Positions 3,254 through 55,990 of a DNA stretch of 64,000 bases are shown piece by piece (positions within the stretch are counted from its first letter, which is position 1; every line of letters starts with the position of its first letter). The stretch comes from Pyropia haitanensis (taxonomy: Eukaryota > Rhodophyta > Bangiophyceae > Bangiales > Bangiaceae). The DNA lies in the NCBI GenBank assembly GCA_008729055.1, contig SDUX01000020.1:62001-126000 (forward strand). Direction: 5' to 3'. The notes under the pieces were generated by a model that was not told the origin of the DNA, ran no database searches, and saw nothing but the letters and a program-made list of their open reading frames with translations. The translations under genes and the position numbers were made by a program.

Positions 3254-4927
3254 ATGGGCGGTCCTTCGACCGCTGTGGTCGTGGACGTTGTCACGTCTGT
3301 TGCTGAGCGTGGATTTCGCGCTTTCTCCGACATGCGGTCGTGCGACGACGGTGTGTTTCCTACGGCTTGTGTGCTCATGTGTCTCAGTGAGTTACGTGAC
3401 GTGTACATCCTTTGCAATGCTGCAGCGGAAGCCGCAGTTCGAGAGCCTTCCGGTCAAGCGGTTTGGCGAGTCGAAGATGCATCTTGGGAAGCTGTTCGGT
3501 TTTGGGTCGTCTCGCACGTTCGACGCGTACCCGGGACTGAGGTTGGCACCTCGTTGTCACGGGAGCAGGAGTTTGGACCGGGGCTGTCGCGGAGTGTGTC
3601 TGTCAAGATATCTCATCGGACGGAGTGGCTCGTCGACACTCGTATGGATCGCGTCTACACCTCCCTTTGGCAGTTGAAGCGGTTCATTGCGGTGCCGCGT
3701 GCGCCGTCCGGGCTTGATGGTATCTTTCTTCTACGTTCGGGGTGTGCTGTTTTGGCGGATGGGGCCGGGAGCTCGACGGGCGTAGGCGTCGACGTTGACG
3801 ACGTGCGGCATGACGACGACGTTTCAAGGGAGGTGAATGTTCTGGCGGTGTCGGCGGAGTCCCGCCTGGCGCCTTTGGATGGTCGGGCGTGGCAGGTCCT
3901 CTTGGCGTTGGCGGGCGAGCAGCGAGGCATGGAGGACTTTCTAGCTTTTGCGGGCGATCGATTTCCCGCAATGTTGGTGCCCGTGCAGCAGGATGCTGTG
4001 TCTGCGCCGGTTCCCAGCGGCAGTGTGGCCGCTGTTGGAGACAAGCCCCGTCGTGCGGCCGATGAACCGGACGCGCACGTAGCTGGACCAGCTATGTCGG
4101 TGTCTTCTGCTCTTCCCCATCCAGTTATGCTGCATCAACCAGTCGCGGCGGACGTATTGCTTCGTGGTGTCCTTCAGGCATGGCCTGACGACGATGGCTT
4201 TCGAGCGCAGTGCGGGCGGCATGGCGTGCCATCGATTGCCGCGTTGATGCCGTTTCAAGTCGTAGCTTGGCTGTCTGCTGTGTGTGGCCTGGCCCGTCAA
4301 CCCGCGTCTGGCAGACAGGCGGATCTTTGGCGTTTTGCAGTTTTGCTGAGAGGCGTCGTCCACGACGTCTTATCCGGCTTTGATGTCGTCGCTCGAAGTG
4401 TTGGCTTCTCTTCTATCGAGTCGATGGTCGCGCCATATCTCTTGTGGCACGCCAAGGAGTGCGGGTACGTGGCGCTTGCGCGCCCTGAGGACGACGATCT
4501 CTTTGCTCCTGTCAGTCAAAGCGGGAATCTATGGCATGCAGCTGGTCCTGTCAAGTGTTCTCCTGCGGCCGTACCTGCGGACGTGTTGTCCAGAACGCCG
4601 GCAGCAAACAAGCAATTGCGCGTCGTTGCGCACCTGCTTCACGGGCACCTCTATTGGTGCACCCGCCTCGACCGTCTGGAGGGAGAGCCTGCGCTCGCGG
4701 ACCGCCTTGGAGTTGGCCGGAAGCGTCCTCGGCGTCCTTCGACGACAACGACGGATGAAGAAGGTGGCGCCTTCTCCGATCTAGTCGCACGGGCGTCCAG
4801 CGACACTGGCGGATCGTCAGAGGCGCGCAAAGGGAAGCAGCCTGGCCGTGTCGACCGCCGGCGTCAACCTCTTTCCGGCCGCGTGTCTGTCGCGGATTAT
4901 CGACCCCGCGGTGGTCTGGGGACTTGA
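3254..4927 (+). CDS. Uncharacterised 557-residue protein of the accessory block
   Basis: The start ATG has a good context (GCAGCCATGG) and a TATA box lies about 200 bases upstream. The protein shows no motif I recognise. It is a mixed, globular-looking sequence rich in Val, Ala and Asp, with no signal peptide or clear membrane segment. The C-terminus is basic (GRKRPRRPST and RVDRRRQPLSGR). Its stop overlaps the next frame: that frame is open from 4759, has no ATG for about 700 bases, and its conserved part starts soon after this stop. The two may therefore be a single gene joined by a short intron or a +1 shift within 4759-4927. If so, this would be the N-terminal half of the DNA methyltransferase-SET protein. 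Confidence 0.6.
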   Translation: MGGPSTAVVVDVVTSVAERGFRAFSDMRSCDDGVFPTACVLMCLSELRDVYILCNAAAEAAVREPSGQAVWRVEDASWEAVRFWVVSHVRRVPGTEVGTSLSREQEFGPGLSRSVSVKISHRTEWLVDTRMDRVYTSLWQLKRFIAVPRAPSGLDGIFLLRSGCAVLADGAGSSTGVGVDVDDVRHDDDVSREVNVLAVSAESRLAPLDGRAWQVLLALAGEQRGMEDFLAFAGDRFPAMLVPVQQDAVSAPVPSGSVAAVGDKPRRAADEPDAHVAGPAMSVSSALPHPVMLHQPVAADVLLRGVLQAWPDDDGFRAQCGRHGVPSIAALMPFQVVAWLSAVCGLARQPASGRQADLWRFAVLLRGVVHDVLSGFDVVARSVGFSSIESMVAPYLLWHAKECGYVALARPEDDDLFAPVSQSGNLWHAAGPVKCSPAAVPADVLSRTPAANKQLRVVAHLLHGHLYWCTRLDRLEGEPALADRLGVGRKRPRRPSTTTTDEEGGAFSDLVARASSDTGGSSEARKGKQPGRVDRRRQPLSGRVSVADYRPRGGLGT

Positions 4928-7215
4928 CCGAGGTGCCGCAGGTTCTCCTGTCGGTGCTTGCCAGTCTTTCCGCTTTCAAGCGGGTACCGGTGACGTCTGG
5001 GGGATCTGTGACGGCCGGGATCGGACCCGGTGGTGGTGGTACCCTGCGGTCGAGGTTGTGCGGCCGCGGTGTGACGCGGGCGTCTGGCGTTGCTGCCGTG
5101 CTCGCCGCGGGCTCACGTCGTGGCGTGGCTCCTGCTGCACATGGCCAGACGGCTGCGCCTGATCTGGTTAGTGCCTGGTCGACGGTCACTCGTGCTTTAC
5201 GAGCGCTCGTGCAGGTGCACGTATGTCCGTTTGAAGATCTGGTGACCGTCCACGACGAGGTTTTGCAGCAGCAGGAGCAGCTGACCAAGCAGACACGAGG
5301 CGATGATTCGCACGGGCGGGCGGTTGTGCGTGGTCAGGCTGCGTCATCCGCTCCGTCGCACCCCATCCCTCGTTGTCTCACTGGCCAAGTGCAGCTGATT
5401 TTGACCGATCCGCCCTACAACATCCGTCGAGACGCGAACCTGCCGCAGTCCGCGCACGACGTTTTGACGGAGAGTCAGATGCTGAGGTGCGCTCACCTGT
5501 TTATGCTGCTGCTGCGCCCCGGTGGCCACTTATTGGTGTTTTGCTCTTCCGCCCAGCATCCTGAATGGGTACGAGTCCTTCGAGGCCTGCGCGATCGTGG
5601 CAAGCGTGGCGCACGGGACGGGAAGAGCGCCTTTGCGGTGGACGGCGCTCCTCTCGTGACGATCAAGGATCCCCACGCCATCGCCACCGCTCGTCGAAGT
5701 TCAACGAATCTCACCAACAAGACGGAAATGATCGTGCACGCCACTCGGTGTGGTGCGTCCGCCCAGGAGGCGTACGAGATGGTCAACTACCGCACGTTCA
5801 ACCGTGTTCCGTCGCGCTTCCTTGCCCACGACAACGTCATCGACAATGTCCGCCCGCCCGGTGTGTCGGAGGTCGTTTACCGTGTCGAGGAGGGCTCCCG
5901 CCAATGGATTCGCCCAGAGCAGAAGGCCATCGCGCTCGCCTCAGAGTTGCTGTTGCGGTTCTCCCAGTGCGGAGACCTTGTGACGGACTTTTTCGGAGGC
6001 ACCTGTTTTGTTGCAGCGGCGGCCTTGCGCATGCCACTTGGGCAGTACCGGCGCGTTGTCTGTTGCGACGCTGATGCCGACGTCATCCGCGCGGCTCTTC
6101 CACGTCTTCGTCGCGAGTTTGTCGAACAGGTGATTGCTGGCGGTTACGCCAACTTCCCCTCTGTTGGGGGCGACCCGTCCGTGGTCGCGGCGGCGCACGT
6201 GGTTCGGCAGCTCGCACCGGTCGTCGTCAACGTTGGGCGTGGAGAGGAAGACGTCCCTCGCCTCGCCCCTCCCCTTGTCCCTTTTGGCGCCGACTGGAGT
6301 CCCCCTGCCGGACGGCCGTGTCACTCTGCGCTACCCTTGTCTGTCATCCAGTTGCTGGCGAGCAGATGGGCGCGGGCTGCTGATGAGGAGCGTGTGGGGC
6401 GCGAAAGCTTTCCCTCTGTTCCGCCGCCTGGCCGTGATGTCGCTGCTGCAGTGCTGGCGCTGGCAAACGTCCCGGTAGGTGGTTGGCCGCGCAAGTACCA
6501 GTGTGCTTTATCCACTGAGGACGGCACTGCACTGCGAGAGCATGCGGCGGCAGAGCTGGGCCTATTTCTTGCCACATCTGGCCTCGCCGGTGGCAGTGCC
6601 GGGACGGGCGTGTATGCGGCGCGACCGTTTCGCGACGGTGCTGTCGTTGCGCCCTTCTTCGGCGCCATTACCTACACCGACTTGGGTGTCAAGGCGAACC
6701 GCACCGTACGCTACGCGTCGTCCGTCCTCGGCTCGTACGGGCCCACGGCGCAAGACTGTTCGGAGCGAGCTCTGGCGGTATCTGTGCGGACAACATGCGC
6801 CGGTGAAGGGCAACGGTCGGACGACACGGCACCTGGCGAATCTTCGGAAGAGTCCACTGTGTGGATCGTGCCGTCTGTTTGTTGTGTTGCGGGTTACGTC
6901 AACGACTGTACGGCCGTATCCAAGGTGGACCAAGCCGCCTCGGCGTCGACGCACGAAGTCATCCCGCGTGCGCACGCCAATGTCGCCATCCACGTGAAGC
7001 CCAAGGTGAGTGGCGACGATCTCACCATTGATGATTTGCTGTCGGTGGACGCAGTTCAGTTCATTGCCTGTCGTGACATATCCGCGGGTGAGGAGGTGAT
7101 AGTATGGTACGGGTCCGATTATGTGTTTTTGCATGATGAGGAGGTGCGGGGTGGGCGAGCATCTGGTGGTAGGTTGGTGAGTCGCAGCACGCCGCACACA
7201 TTTGCAGGCGTGTAG
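4924..7215 (+). CDS. DNA methyltransferase (DPPY class) fused to a SET domain
   Basis: Coordinates begin at a TTG that only marks the end of the preceding frame; the true start is probably further upstream through the preceding gene. Counting from 4924, residues 161-166 read TDPPYN, the catalytic motif IV of N6-adenine/N4-cytosine DNA methyltransferases. About residue 355 is the SAM-binding loop DFFGGTCFVAAAA, followed by CCDAD. The order IV then I is that of beta-class enzymes. From about residue 560 a SET domain follows: GTGVYAARPFRDGAVV, then GYVNDCT (about 657) in the place of the usual NHSC, then ANVAIHV, then GEEVIVWYG (about 722). The SET tyrosine is present. A predicted role is DNA modification combined with protein (histone) lysine methylation. 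The fusion lies on one continuous frame, with no homopolymer that could have created it. Confidence 0.8.
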   Translation: MTEVPQVLLSVLASLSAFKRVPVTSGGSVTAGIGPGGGGTLRSRLCGRGVTRASGVAAVLAAGSRRGVAPAAHGQTAAPDLVSAWSTVTRALRALVQVHVCPFEDLVTVHDEVLQQQEQLTKQTRGDDSHGRAVVRGQAASSAPSHPIPRCLTGQVQLILTDPPYNIRRDANLPQSAHDVLTESQMLRCAHLFMLLLRPGGHLLVFCSSAQHPEWVRVLRGLRDRGKRGARDGKSAFAVDGAPLVTIKDPHAIATARRSSTNLTNKTEMIVHATRCGASAQEAYEMVNYRTFNRVPSRFLAHDNVIDNVRPPGVSEVVYRVEEGSRQWIRPEQKAIALASELLLRFSQCGDLVTDFFGGTCFVAAAALRMPLGQYRRVVCCDADADVIRAALPRLRREFVEQVIAGGYANFPSVGGDPSVVAAAHVVRQLAPVVVNVGRGEEDVPRLAPPLVPFGADWSPPAGRPCHSALPLSVIQLLASRWARAADEERVGRESFPSVPPPGRDVAAAVLALANVPVGGWPRKYQCALSTEDGTALREHAAAELGLFLATSGLAGGSAGTGVYAARPFRDGAVVAPFFGAITYTDLGVKANRTVRYASSVLGSYGPTAQDCSERALAVSVRTTCAGEGQRSDDTAPGESSEESTVWIVPSVCCVAGYVNDCTAVSKVDQAASASTHEVIPRAHANVAIHVKPKVSGDDLTIDDLLSVDAVQFIACRDISAGEEVIVWYGSDYVFLHDEEVRGGRASGGRLVSRSTPHTFAGV

Positions 7216-31760: not shown

Positions 31761-32124
31761 ATGGGGGACCCCCCCCCCCCCTCGCCCTCCCCCCCGACGC
31801 CATCCGCGTCATCGCCGACGCCCTCCCCGGCGTCGGCGCCCTGCGCGACGACGCGGCGGCGGCGGCCGCGGCCGAGATGGACGGCCGCCTCGGCGCCCTC
31901 GTCGCCGCCGCCCTCGCCTTTACCCGCCACCGCCGCGGGCGCACCCTCACCGCCGACGACGTGCGGGGGGCGCTGCGCCACCGGCGGGCGGCGCCCGTCG
32001 TCGGCCTCCCCCCGCCGGCGTCGGCGCACGCGCCGGGGGGGGGGGCCGCCGCCGCGGTGGCGGGGGTGGGGGGGGGGGGCGCCGCCGCCGCGGCGGCGGC
32101 GGGGGCGGGGGACGGCGCGGCAGG

Positions 32125-32160
<36 letters not shown>

Positions 32161-32445
32161 CGCCGCCGCCGCGGCGGCGGGGGCGCCCCCCCCCCCTGGG
32201 TGCCCGTCCCGGCGTGCCCCGGCCTGTGGACGGCCCCCGACCCGAGCGTGCGGCTGCTGGCGGTGGTGGCGGCGCCGCTGCCCCCGCGGGCGGCGCCGCC
32301 GGCGCCCGCCGCGCGCTGGCTGGCCGTCGCGGGCGCGCCGACGGACGACGCGCTCGAGGCGGGGGTGGACGACACCGCCGCCGCGCCGGCGTCGCTGCTC
32401 GTGTCGCGGGCGCGGCCGGGGGGGGGGGGGGCGCCGCCCGCGCCC

Positions 32446-32490
<45 letters not shown>

Positions 32491-32811
32491 GCGGCGGCGG
32501 CGGCGGCGGCGGGGGTGGGGGTGGGGCGGGCGGCGGCGGCGGCGGCGGCGGCGGTGGGGGTGGCGGCGGCGGCGGCGGCGGGGGCGGCCCCCTGTCGGGC
32601 CGCACCCGCCGCGCGCTCGCCGCCTACTTTGCCGCCGCCGTGCGGGCGCTGGACAGCGGGGAGGCGGCGGCGGTGGACGCGATCCTGGGGGGGGTCGCCA
32701 CCGCCCCGGCCGCCCGCCCGGCGCTGCCGGCGCTCGTGCGGTGGGTGCAGGCGGTGGTGCTCGACGCGTGCCGGGAGCCGCCGGGGGGGGCCGCCGCCGC
32801 CGCCGCCGCCT

Positions 32812-32854
<43 letters not shown>

Positions 32855-33867
32855 GGCCGCCAAAGCTCCCCCCCCCCCCCCCCCCCCCCCAGCCGTCCGT
32901 CCCCCCCCCACCCCCGCCGACGCCGCCGAGGCGCGCCTCCTCGTCGCCCTCCGCCTCGGCCGCGCCATCCTCCGCCGCGCCCCCGGCGGCGACGCGGACG
33001 GCCTCGCCGCCCACCTGCTGCCGGCGCTGCTGTCGGGGGCGGTGGCGGCCGCCCCCGCCCGCGGCTGGTCCCGCCGCGCGCTCGCCGCGGCGGCGGTGGC
33101 GGACGCGGTGGCGGCGGCCGAGGGCGCCGCCGGCGGGGGGGGGGCGGGGGGGGCGGGGGGGGGGCGCCGCCCCCGCCCCCGACCACCGCCGCCCGCTCGC
33201 GCGCGGCGGCGACGGCGGCGGCGGCGGTGGCGGCGGCGGGGGCGCCGCTGGAGGTGGCGTACGGCGGGGTGGCGACGCTCGCGGCGCTGGGGGGGCGGCG
33301 CTGACCGCGGGGCTGCTGCCGGCGCTGCCGGCGCTGCTCGCGCGGCTGGCGGGGGTGTGGGCGCGCGCGGGGGCGGCGGCGGCGGCGGCGGCGGCCGGCG
33401 GTGGCGGCGGCGCCCGCGCGCGCCGCCGCGGTCGGCGCCCGCGGGGCGCGGGGGGGGGGGCGCCGGCCTCGGCGCCGCCGCCGAGGCGCGCGCGGCGGTG
33501 ACGGCGGTGCTGGCGGCGGTGGCGGCCGCCGCGCGGCCGGCGGTGGCGGCGGTGGCGGCGGGGGTGGAGGCGGCCGCCGCGGAGGGGGACGTCCCGGACG
33601 GGCCGCCGTGGGGGGTGGGCGGCGCCGGCGGCGCCGGCGGCGGCGGCGGCGGTCGCGGCGTCAAGCGGCGGCGGGAGGAGGGGGGGCGCCGCCGGCGGGC
33701 GCCGCCGCGGGCGGCGGGCCGCCGCCGGGGGGGGCGCCGCCGGCGGGCCCGCCGGCGGGGGCGGCCGCGGGGGGGCCGCCGCCGCGCGGCGGCGGCGCGC
33801 GCGGCGGCGGCTGTGGGCGCTGCTCGACGCGCACAGCGACCTGCTCGTGGAGGGGCCGGGGCTGTGA
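31761..33867 (+). CDS. TAF6: TFIID subunit TAF6
   Basis: ATG 31,761 (MGDPPP) leads through a C-run, where the frame moves by one, into a histone fold: LALPPDAIRVIADALPGVGA, then AAAEMDGRLGALVAAALAFT, then RHRRGRTLTADDVRGALRHR and PVVGLP. This is the TAF6 order, with (K/R)R.LT..D...AL followed by a P.yG-like end. After an Ala/Gly spacer, PGLWTAPDPSVRLLAVV and LSGRTRRALAAYFAAAVRAL open the C-terminal HEAT-like domain, which continues with LPALVRWVQAVV, RLLVALRLGRAIL and HLLPALLSGAV. It ends in LLDAHSDLLVEGPGL. At least four frame changes coincide with G or C runs. TAF6 pairs with TAF9 in TFIID and SAGA. Confidence 0.8.
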
Positions 33868-34742
33868 GGGCGGCGCGGGGGGGGGGGGGGGCGAGGACGG
33901 AGGCGGGCCCCCTCGGTGCCCGGTTGCCGCTGTCGCTGTGGGCGGAGGGGAGGGCGCCGGGGGGGGGTGGGGGGGGGGGTGTTGGGGCGTCAGGCAGTAA
34001 CGATGAGCGGACGCCCCTTTACTTCGTGTGTGTTTTTTTTTCCCCCTACTCCTTCGCCAGTGGGCGTCCCCTCACCGGTGCTTGCACCCGCCGCGCGGCG
34101 GTCGCCTGCGGCCCGCCGCCGCGTCGGCCCGCACGCCCAGGTTTTTGCTCCTCTTCTTCCCGCCGGCCCGCGCGCGGCGGCGCGCCGCCCCCCCCTCCCC
34201 CTCCGTGCGCCGCCGCCCGCGGGGGGCCCCCACCGGCGGCGCGGCGCCGCGGGGGGGCGGCGCCGCCGGCGGCCGCCCCCCCCCCCCCCCCCCCCCCCTG
34301 CGCGGGGCACGCCCGCGTCGCCGCCCCACCGCGGGGGCGGCGGCGGCGCGAGCGGCGCGGCGGCGGCGCCCCGGCGCGCGCCTCGCGCGCGCGGCGCACC
34401 CGCCGGCGGGCGCCGCCCGCCCGACCCGCCCGCGGCGCGCGGCCGGCGGCCGCCGCGGCGGGCGGCGCCGCGGCGCGGGGCGCGCCGGCCACCGCCGCCC
34501 GCACGGCCGCGGGCGGCGCGCGGCGCGCGGCGAAATCCAGACGCCCCGCCGCGGCGCCCGCCCCCCGCGCCCGCCCCGCCCGTCCCGCCGCCCGCCGCCG
34601 CCGCCGCCGCCCGCCGCCGCCGCCAGCCGCCGCGGCCGCGGCCGCGGCCGCCACCGCCAACAGGGCGCCCACACCACCCCCTGGCCCTGCCACCGCCGCG
34701 GCCTCCGCCGCGGCCCCGCCCCCCGCGCCGACCCCCGGCGCA

Positions 34743-34775
<33 letters not shown>

Positions 34776-35228
34776 TGCCGCCGCCGCCGCCGCCGCGGGC
34801 CGCCGCGGCGGCGCCCGCGGGCGGCGTGCGCGCCGCGCGCGGGCACGGGGCGGGGGCCGCTCCCCCCCCGAGCCGCCGCCCCGCCGGCCGGGGCGCCGCC
34901 GCGGACGCGCGCCAAAGCAGAGCGCCGCCGCCCGCGCCGGGGAGCGCGAGACGAAAAAGGGCACTGCCCCCCCCACGCACACAACCACAAAAAAAGAAAA
35001 GGCGCGGGCGGCCGCCCGCAGCGCGCCCGCGGAGCGCCGCCCGCGGGGGCGCCCGTCCCCCCTCCCGCACCCCCACCCGCCGCCGCGGCGGCCGGCGCGG
35101 GCCGCCCGCCGGCGGCGGCGGCGGCGCGCCGCGCCGCCTCCCCCGCCGCCCGCCCGTCCCCCGTCCCCCCCCACCCCGCCCCGCGCGCCGCCGCCGCGCG
35201 CCGGGTCGGGGCGCGCACGCCCGGGGCG

Positions 35229-35264
<36 letters not shown>

Positions 35265-35386
35265 CGCCGCCCCGACGCCGCGGCGCCCGCCCGACGGCGG
35301 CGGCCGCACCAGCGGCGACGGGGCCGGGGCTCCCCCCCCCCCCCCCCCTTCCCCACACCCCCCGTGCCCCCCCCCCCCAACCCCCT
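33868..35386. other. 1.5 kb of hyper-GC DNA without a recognised gene
   Basis: A T-run at 34,027-34,036 lies about 160 bases after the TAF6 stop and probably belongs to its 3' region. Beyond it both strands are open for long distances but encode only Arg/Pro/Ala/Gly, with no motif. Confidence 0.45.
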
Positions 35387-36003
35387 CTACGCCCCCCCCC
35401 CCCCCGCCCGGCTATAACGGCGGCCCGCCCCCGCCGGCAGGGACGCCCTCCGGCGCCCCCCCCCCCCCGACGCCCGCGCGGCCAGCCGCGCCAGGTGCCG
35501 CGCCTCCGCCGGCCCCACCGCCCGCGCGCGCGCGTCCCGCGCCTCGTAGCCCGCGAGCACCCCCGCGACGGCGTCCGCGACGGGCGCGCCCGCCACCTCG
35601 CGCAGCACCGGCGGCGCGCGCGCCGCCGCCTCCATCCGCTCGTAGCCGTCGAGGACGCCGCGGATGGCGGTGGCGGGGGGGGGGGCGTCGACCGCGACGA
35701 GCGCCGGCGGCGCGCGCGCCGCCGCGTCCTTGGCCTCAAAGTAGCCGACGGCGGCGCCGACGGCGCCGCCGCCGCCGCCGCCGGGGGCGGGCGGCGGCGG
35801 CGGCGGCCCCGCCGCCGCCTCGGCGGCGCGCCGCCGCGCCAGCTCCGCCCGCGCCGCGGCGAGCGCGGCGGGCGGCGCGCCGGCCGCGGCGGCGCCCGAC
35901 CGCGACCGCCGCCCCGCCGGGCGGCCGCCGCGGGGGGCGCTGCCCGACGGCCGGGGGGGGCCGCCGGCAGCGGCGGCGGCGCCTTGGACGCGCAGCACCC
36001 CAT
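35387..36003 (-). CDS. Putative N-myristoylated/palmitoylated protein with GY...AARAPP repeats
   Basis: ATG 36,003 begins MGCCASKAPPP. Gly2 with Ser6 fits N-myristoylation and Cys3-Cys4 fits palmitoylation. After a frame change at a C-run near 35,955, the protein has a helical stretch (LAAARAELARRRAAEAAA) and then repeats: GYFEAKDAAARAPPALVAV, GVLDGYERMEAAARAPPVL, and GVLAGYEARDARARAVG. The two main copies are about 40 residues apart. The C-terminus is Arg/Gly-rich. I do not know this family; a peripheral membrane or cytoskeletal role would be a guess. Confidence 0.55.
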
Positions 36004-55824: not shown

Positions 55825-55828
55825 AAAA
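55825..55828 (-). terminator. RNA polymerase III terminator (T4)
   Basis: TTTT on the minus strand, six bases after the discriminator A of the tRNA gene. Confidence 0.7.
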
Positions 55829-55834
55829 TAGCTG

Positions 55835-55950
55835 TGGTCCTGGCGAGGACTTCATACGAACGCGGGCCTCAAACAGAACACCGAGCCGGGATTTGAACTC
55901 GCGATCTCCGCATTCAAAGTGCGGCGTGATCACCACTACACCACAGGACC
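55835..55950 (-). tRNA. tRNA-Gln(UUG) with an ectopic intron in the T-loop
   Basis: The 5' acceptor strand GGTCCTG (55,950-55,944) finds its partner CAGGACC only at 55,842-55,836, followed by discriminator A (55,835). The D-arm is GTG...CAC and the anticodon stem CCGCA/TGCGG with loop CTTTGAA (anticodon TTG). The T-stem 5' strand GCGAG is followed by TTCAAAT; its 3' strand CTCGC (55,847-55,843) lies 43 bases further on. Removing 43 bases (55,891-55,849, or one base shifted) gives a complete cloverleaf. A bulge-helix-bulge is formed at the junctions: outer helix GCGAG/CTCGC, central 4-bp helix TTCA/TGAA, and 3-base bulges AAT and GTC. A- and B-box sequences, an upstream TATA and a T4 terminator are present. 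Confidence 0.9.
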
Positions 55951-55983: not shown

Positions 55984-55990
55984 TATATAA
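55984..55990 (-). promoter_or_regulatory. TATA-like element upstream of the tRNA gene
   Basis: TTATATA on the minus strand about 34-40 bases before the tRNA 5' end, the usual place for TATA-like elements that help position TFIIIB in plants and algae. Confidence 0.5.

Follow-up and report, generated by a model that had tools for sequence, protein, structure and literature searches.

The minus strand of the window, the 64,000-nt stretch analysed here (C21:62001-126000 in a 52.9-Mb assembly of 136 contigs), carries at 55835..55950 a tRNA-Gln(UUG) gene whose 43-nt intron lies at position 59/60 and not at the canonical 37/38 site, as judged from Rfam, ARAGORN on the spliced form, BLAST and paralog comparison. 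Exon 1 (55892..55950, 59 nt, tRNA positions 1-59) comprises the 5′ strand of the acceptor stem, the D arm, the anticodon arm with TTG, the 5′ strand of the T stem and T-loop positions 54-59. Exon 2 (55835..55848, 14 nt), placed from ARAGORN and the paralog, supplies position 60, the 3′ strands of the T and acceptor stems and the discriminator A. Between them lies the intron (55849..55891), whose exact cuts we infer from the bulge-helix-bulge (BHB) rule, with cleavage after the second base of each 3-nt bulge. By pairing register, the exon strand of the BHB helix is TTCA (positions 54-57; 55894..55897) and its intron strand TGAA (55851..55854); the helix is flanked by the 3-nt bulges AAT and GTC and stands atop the T stem GCGAG/CTCGC. 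In coordinates, intron length and archaeal-type junction geometry, the gene is what the first-pass annotation had described. That annotation also held that all four stems become perfect once the intron is removed, which is right for the acceptor (7/7 pairs), anticodon (5/5) and T (5/5) stems as drawn by ARAGORN, but not for the D stem, which has three of four pairs and a T-T mismatch.

With 55849-55891 removed, ARAGORN returns tRNA-Gln(ttg); on the unspliced window it calls no tRNA. The Rfam tRNA family matches the unspliced gene only partially (37.5 bits, model positions 7-64), building a false T arm from intron bases. The TATA-like element that had been proposed is found as TATATA at 55984..55989, 34-39 nt upstream (-39 to -34), and a TTTT run resembling a Pol III terminator is found at 55825..55828, although it begins 6 nt past the discriminator and not directly after it as had been claimed; both are putative signals, read from the letters. 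The intron splits the Pol III B box, and its first bases, TCC, preserve the B-box consensus. A fold of the 116-nt transcript, suggested as a check, did not return the expected structure: the unconstrained minimum-energy fold (-41.8 kcal/mol) is not a cloverleaf with a BHB, and enforcing that structure gives -36.1 kcal/mol. The same folding program gives no cloverleaf for the spliced tRNA-Gln either.

An intact Gln(UUG) gene elsewhere, together with a lack of spliced reads from this locus, had been named as the mark of a pseudogene in the window. When the spliced 73-mer is used as a BLAST query on the genome, it hits two places, the window gene and C2:644462 (L050), both intron-bearing and each matching only up to the intron; no intact Gln(UUG) gene was found by BLAST in the 52.9-Mb assembly, unassembled DNA lying outside this search. 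The exons of L050 (59 nt and 14 nt) are identical to those of the window gene in every letter, as are its interruption site, BHB helix and 3′ bulge, but its intron, of 44 nt (43 nt in the window gene), is unlike. Global alignment of the two introns scores better than 1985 of 2000 shuffles, but better than only 1625 when the last six bases (TGAAGT) are left out, 375 of the 2000 then scoring as high. Since the similarity sits in these six bases, little is recognisably common to the two introns beyond the splice motif. The 100 nt upstream of the two loci align with a score of -8, whereas 300 shuffles average -18.5, and a common origin of the loci is therefore possible. Neither gene encodes CCA. 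An intact gene does exist for tRNA-Gln(CTG) (L012), a tRNA that by the usual decoding rules does not read CAA.

The Gln gene does not stand alone: predicted ectopic BHB introns at 59/60 and 20/21 occur in tRNA genes across the genome, beside others with introns at 37/38. The genome scan that the first-pass annotation recommended yielded a further 34 loci interrupted at sites other than 37/38, of which three look truncated. The Rfam tRNA family search gave 63 matches of 63 scored, from 471 first-pass candidates; two A-box patterns gave 21 matches (4 new) and 16 matches (11 new), with 0 in the control for each, and an initiator pattern gave 5 matches (control 0). Six intact Leu genes missed by the family search were recovered by pattern. 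After three family matches on bacterial-looking contigs (two on C76, one on C83) were left out, 80 nuclear loci remained, which were classed by eye with ARAGORN as an aid. In this incomplete census, whose methods may favour some intron sites over others, 36 loci are intact, 25 carry a 59/60 intron, 10 a 20/21 intron and six a 37/38 intron only, and three (L063, L097 and L104) are unclear; L062, L118 and L124 have two introns each, at 59/60 and 37/38. No gene for tRNA-Ala(AGC), Phe, Pro, His or elongator Met was seen among the 80 loci. L097 and L104 are Val-like loci whose anticodon arms are unusual; they may have decayed or be interrupted in a different way. Three pairs of tRNA genes face each other as inverted copies about 0.7-1.2 kb apart: L004/L005, Thr(AGT); L016/L017, Thr(CGT); and L133/L134, initiator Met.

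A covariance model built from 19 of these tRNA genes, excluding the window gene and L048-L063, scores the window gene at 41.5 bits, L050 at 59.4 bits and L048 at 51.7 bits, and finds each of the 15 loci L049-L063 with an E-value no worse than 2.8e-7 (L063, 34.4 bits). ARAGORN with introns allowed named none of 11 ectopic-intron loci correctly, missing nine and misnaming two, so that ordinary annotation overlooks such genes.

The pairing across the intron boundaries was scored by a fixed rule. On the 5′ side, the bulge consists of two exon bases and the first intron base, and the adjoining four exon bases pair; on the 3′ side, it consists of the last two intron bases and the first base of exon 2, and the adjoining four intron bases pair. 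Boundaries were placed by hand, those at 59/60 from the 7-nt T loop (six bases in exon 1, one in exon 2) and those of the Lys 20/21 introns from intact paralogs. Left out were L054, L059 and L134, whose introns repeat another locus, and the unclear L063, L097 and L104. Among the 32 distinct ectopic introns, 108 of the 128 possible helix pairs form (shuffled mean 57.2; 0/20000 as high); 16 introns are perfect and 28 form three or four of the four pairs. The 59/60 introns contribute 75/92 pairs (shuffled mean 40.2; 0/20000 as high), with 10 of 23 perfect and 19 making at least three pairs; the remaining four (L062, L122, L125 and L135) make only two. At 20/21 the count is 33/36 (shuffled mean 16.9; 0/20000 as high; 6/9 perfect), with a possible one-base bias in five Arg and Trp boundaries, which were set from a general tRNA consensus with the pairing already in view. 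Sliding the register by -4 to +3 leaves only 40-69 of 128 pairs, although for the 20/21 introns taken alone the best slide (-4) still gives 24/36, which counts against register specificity there. Where residue 57 is A, it is opposite T in 8 of 10 introns; where it is G, it is opposite C in 5 of 13 and T in 2, and is unpaired in 6, paralogs not being independent cases.

The nine 37/38 introns scored in the same register reach 20/36 pairs, none of them perfect (shuffled mean 12.8; 102/20000 as high). Judged by pairing against shuffles at each site, a BHB is present in the ectopic introns and weak at best in the canonical ones, although both kinds are presumably cut by the same enzyme family. This contrast fits a ruler mechanism for 37/38 and a wider use of the BHB elsewhere, as described for Cyanidioschyzon merolae in the passages of PMC3978253 that bear on it. 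No sign of intron transposition between genes was seen among the 11 introns long enough to compare, whose best local score (14) equals the shuffled median maximum (14).

Intact and interrupted genes are both present for Asn(GTT), Gly(GCC), Ser(AGA), Ser(GCT), Lys(CTT) and Val(CAC). In all 11 interrupted genes with an intact paralog, the exons equal the paralog letter for letter after removal of one contiguous piece (two in L124). The weight of this comparison lies in the full identity of the exons and not in the boundaries, because these were chosen with the paralogs in view. Seven of the 11 genes are wholly or partly ectopic (L032, L034, L037, L047, L061, L124 and L125) and the other four have 37/38 introns only. 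Lys(CTT) genes occur in three states: without an intron, with a 37/38 intron, and with 20/21 introns of 13, 17 and 23 nt.

The initiator tRNA is affected throughout, all five loci that match the initiator anticodon arm being interrupted. L133 and L134, which are identical in gene sequence and face one another across about 1.15 kb, have an intron at 20/21, and L135-L137 have 59/60 introns, three different ones. An A1-U72 pair and A54 are marks of eukaryotic initiator tRNAs. In the four distinct sequences checked, the acceptor stem makes 7/7 pairs with A1-U72, and the initiator T loop starts with A54. In C. merolae, the initiator tRNA gene is listed as permuted (table in PMC3978253).

Putative signals of expression accompany the set. 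A T4 run follows within 30 nt downstream in 28 of 30 tRNA loci examined (of the 80), the exceptions being L027 and L047, but in only 92 of 2064 background stretches. Two of the four initiator sequences, L135 and L137, have no T4 in the 23 nt downstream. Upstream, an AT-rich peak covers -31 to -50 (AT fraction 0.73 over -31 to -40 and 0.68 over -41 to -50), whereas positions -61 to -100 have 0.42-0.48. Genes for a splicing machinery are present as well: Sen34 (L064; 66 bits; PDB Sen34 E 1.4e-13), Sen2 (L065; 32-36 bits; PDB Sen2 E 4.5e-7), Sen54 (L114; 52 bits in the genome search and PDB Sen54 E 2.1e-7, its cut-out piece scoring 20.6 bits, under the cut-off of 24) and the ligase RtcB (L131/L132; 401 and 124 bits). 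A Sen15-like frame (L138) reaches 17.3 bits (E 0.156) alone in the genome search, 30.4 bits with its neighbours, and 29.8 bits in a protein scan (cut-off 22).

Taken together, these observations lead us to propose, with a probability of roughly 0.92, that the locus is a functional nuclear gene for tRNA-Gln(UUG) in a bangialean red alga, with an ectopic BHB intron spliced by the Sen endonuclease. RNA polymerase III would transcribe a precursor, its tRNA part 116 nt long, from the TATA element, the A box and the interrupted B box. The T-loop TTCA would pair with TGAA at the 3′ end of the intron and so form the BHB on top of the T stem, Sen would cut inside both bulges, and a ligase, probably RtcB, would join exon 1 (1-59) to exon 2 (60-73), giving a tRNA that could be charged. 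Modification of the T loop would come last, after ligation. C. merolae Pus4 is described as leaving a pre-tRNA with a T-arm intron unmodified (PMC9602550, in the part concerned), and for this reason splicing before T-loop modification may hold here too.

The alternative that survives best, itself quite unlikely, is that the locus is a pseudogene, a dead tRNA-Gln disrupted when something inserted by chance, with the cell's tRNA coming from intact genes. The genome does hold damaged tRNA copies: the Asp loci L053-L055, three of the 25 with a 59/60 intron, pair at only two of seven acceptor positions and look truncated. Moreover, the similar 100 nt upstream of the two Gln loci may mean that they are duplicates of one interrupted gene. 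Against this, no intact Gln(UUG) gene was found in the assembly, and the two copies, interrupted at one and the same site, agree in all 73 exon bases although their introns differ. Furthermore, BHB pairing across the set lies far above shuffles, and the locus has its TATA-like element and T4 run. As an observation apart, four Asp(GTC) copies (L053, L054, L055 and L059) lie about 7.5 kb from each other at C3:1575084-1597697; three of them are without a matching 5′ acceptor strand, yet keep the T-loop interruption.

That the gene belongs to archaeal or other foreign DNA in the assembly is very improbable. Bacterial-looking contigs are present: C76 bears tRNA-Thr and tRNA-Trp 1.5 kb apart, a spacing that we take to be like that of a bacterial tuf cluster, and C83 bears tRNA-Trp, each gene being followed by CCA. 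C76 and C83 are probably bacterial contamination, and the window copy of the Gln gene sits on a contig (C21) of 162 kb. Nevertheless, L050 is on a 2.1-Mb contig, the other interrupted genes are on contigs of 0.35 to 7.6 Mb, and the Gln genes, unlike the bacterial-looking ones, encode no CCA. In addition, the light-harvesting gene by which the organism is named below (L091; C3:4109479-4109946) lies about 0.3 kb from the intron-bearing tRNA-Lys gene L035 (C3:4110270).

Two further readings are scarcely tenable. That the insertion persists after maturation and enlarges the T arm has nothing positive in its favour, and is hard to reconcile with a 59/60 site that holds 10-44 nt of differing sequence from gene to gene but is empty in sister genes with the same exons. 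For a group I or spliceosomal intron in place of a BHB intron it can be said that tRNA genes elsewhere contain group I introns, but 10-44 nt is too short for either by the usual size limits, the intron ends are not GT-AG, and Rfam at E 0.5 over window positions 40000-64000 finds the tRNA alone.

A spliced BHB intron, the reading we retain, is of a kind already known. Ectopic BHB introns were reported in the nuclear tRNA genes of C. merolae (Soma 2007, 2013, via PMC3978253, PMC4090602 and PMC9602550). As far as those texts describe it, the likeness is close: both organisms are red algae whose nuclear tRNA genes have introns in the D, anticodon and T arms, sometimes several in one gene, with BHB motifs, and both encode Sen2, Sen34 and Sen54. 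There are also differences. In the same descriptions, C. merolae intron sites are scattered (12/13, 14/15, 53/54 and 55/56, for example), whereas we found 20/21, 37/38 and 59/60; no Sen15 was found there, whereas a Sen15-like gene is present here; and, unlike in C. merolae as described, identical gene copies here differ in the presence of an intron. For C. merolae, 11 permuted genes are known.

Thermoproteales archaea also have BHB introns at several sites and several per gene, as described in PMC4033280 and PMC8450103, with an archaeal genome and endonuclease, unlike here. In these accounts similar introns recur between tRNAs; here none do among the 11 introns that can be compared. The Guillardia theta nucleomorph, a red-derived eukaryotic genome, likewise has introns off 37/38 (Kawach 2005, via PMC3978253), but many are described there as lacking a defined BHB, whereas 28 of the 32 introns here make at least three of the four pairs. 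Green algae have almost no ectopic tRNA introns, according to the relevant part of PMC3978253. No report of ectopic BHB tRNA introns in Bangiales appeared among the open-literature matches listed, subscription papers being mostly outside this search. What is new is the lineage, the identical copies with and without introns, the sites found and the Sen15-like gene.

These results extend the known range of ectopic BHB introns, so far a single unicellular red alga and a nucleomorph, to a seaweed lineage, a bangialean alga being multicellular. Identical tRNA genes with and without an intron are natural pairs that give a direct handle on the origin of tRNA introns. The set also bears on the proposal that an unusual Sen complex without Sen15 accompanies ectopic splicing: for C. 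merolae, where Sen15 was not found, a three-subunit enzyme has been considered (PMC4090602 and PMC3978253, in the sections cited). Because a Sen15-like gene is present here, the absence of Sen15 is unlikely to be a general explanation of ectopic splicing; if the four eukaryotic Sen subunits are indeed all present, loss of Sen15 would not be what permits it. A broader picture, to which we lean by a narrow margin of belief, is that tRNA introns are still being gained and lost at two BHB-competent hot spots, 20/21 and 59/60, with the result that gene copies otherwise identical differ in carrying one, that translation depends on ectopic splicing, and that the Sen enzyme has four subunits, so that loss of Sen15 would not be the enabling step. 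The dependence of translation is suggested because no intact initiator or Gln(UUG) gene was found.

The source of the genome is neither Cyanidioschyzon nor a nucleomorph, the two red-algal settings that the first-pass annotation had named, but its guess of a red alga was sound. By its protein sequences, the genome is assigned to a bangialean red alga near Pyropia. The light-harvesting domain has 15 matches in the genome, and for one of these proteins (L091) the nearest named relative is Pyropia vietnamensis MMPV_005616 (79% identical), two further proteins being 99% and 82% identical; among the best 120 relatives listed, one is a Porphyra umbilicalis protein (37% identical). For another light-harvesting protein, the PDB list is headed by the long chain 9vfj, followed by 7y5e, which we take to be from Porphyridium, and then by chains presumably from cryptophytes. 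The bangialean name is tied to the tRNA set because the L091 gene lies so close to the intron-bearing tRNA-Lys gene L035. Inspection by eye of the outermost 110 bases at 20 contig ends revealed no recognisable telomere repeats. A search for the phycobilisome family gave a single partial nuclear match (67 bits), in the frame L092 on a large contig (C11:3537377), and added nothing to the assignment. In the window itself, the GC content is 0.89 over the 4 kb at 32001-36000, where long open reading frames run in many frames at once and are a poor guide to genes. Finally, an open frame on the plus strand at 4924-7212, within a stretch of about 8 kb of lower GC, contains an N6_N4 DNA methylase domain (8.6e-11) as well as a SET domain that falls below threshold (0.00044).
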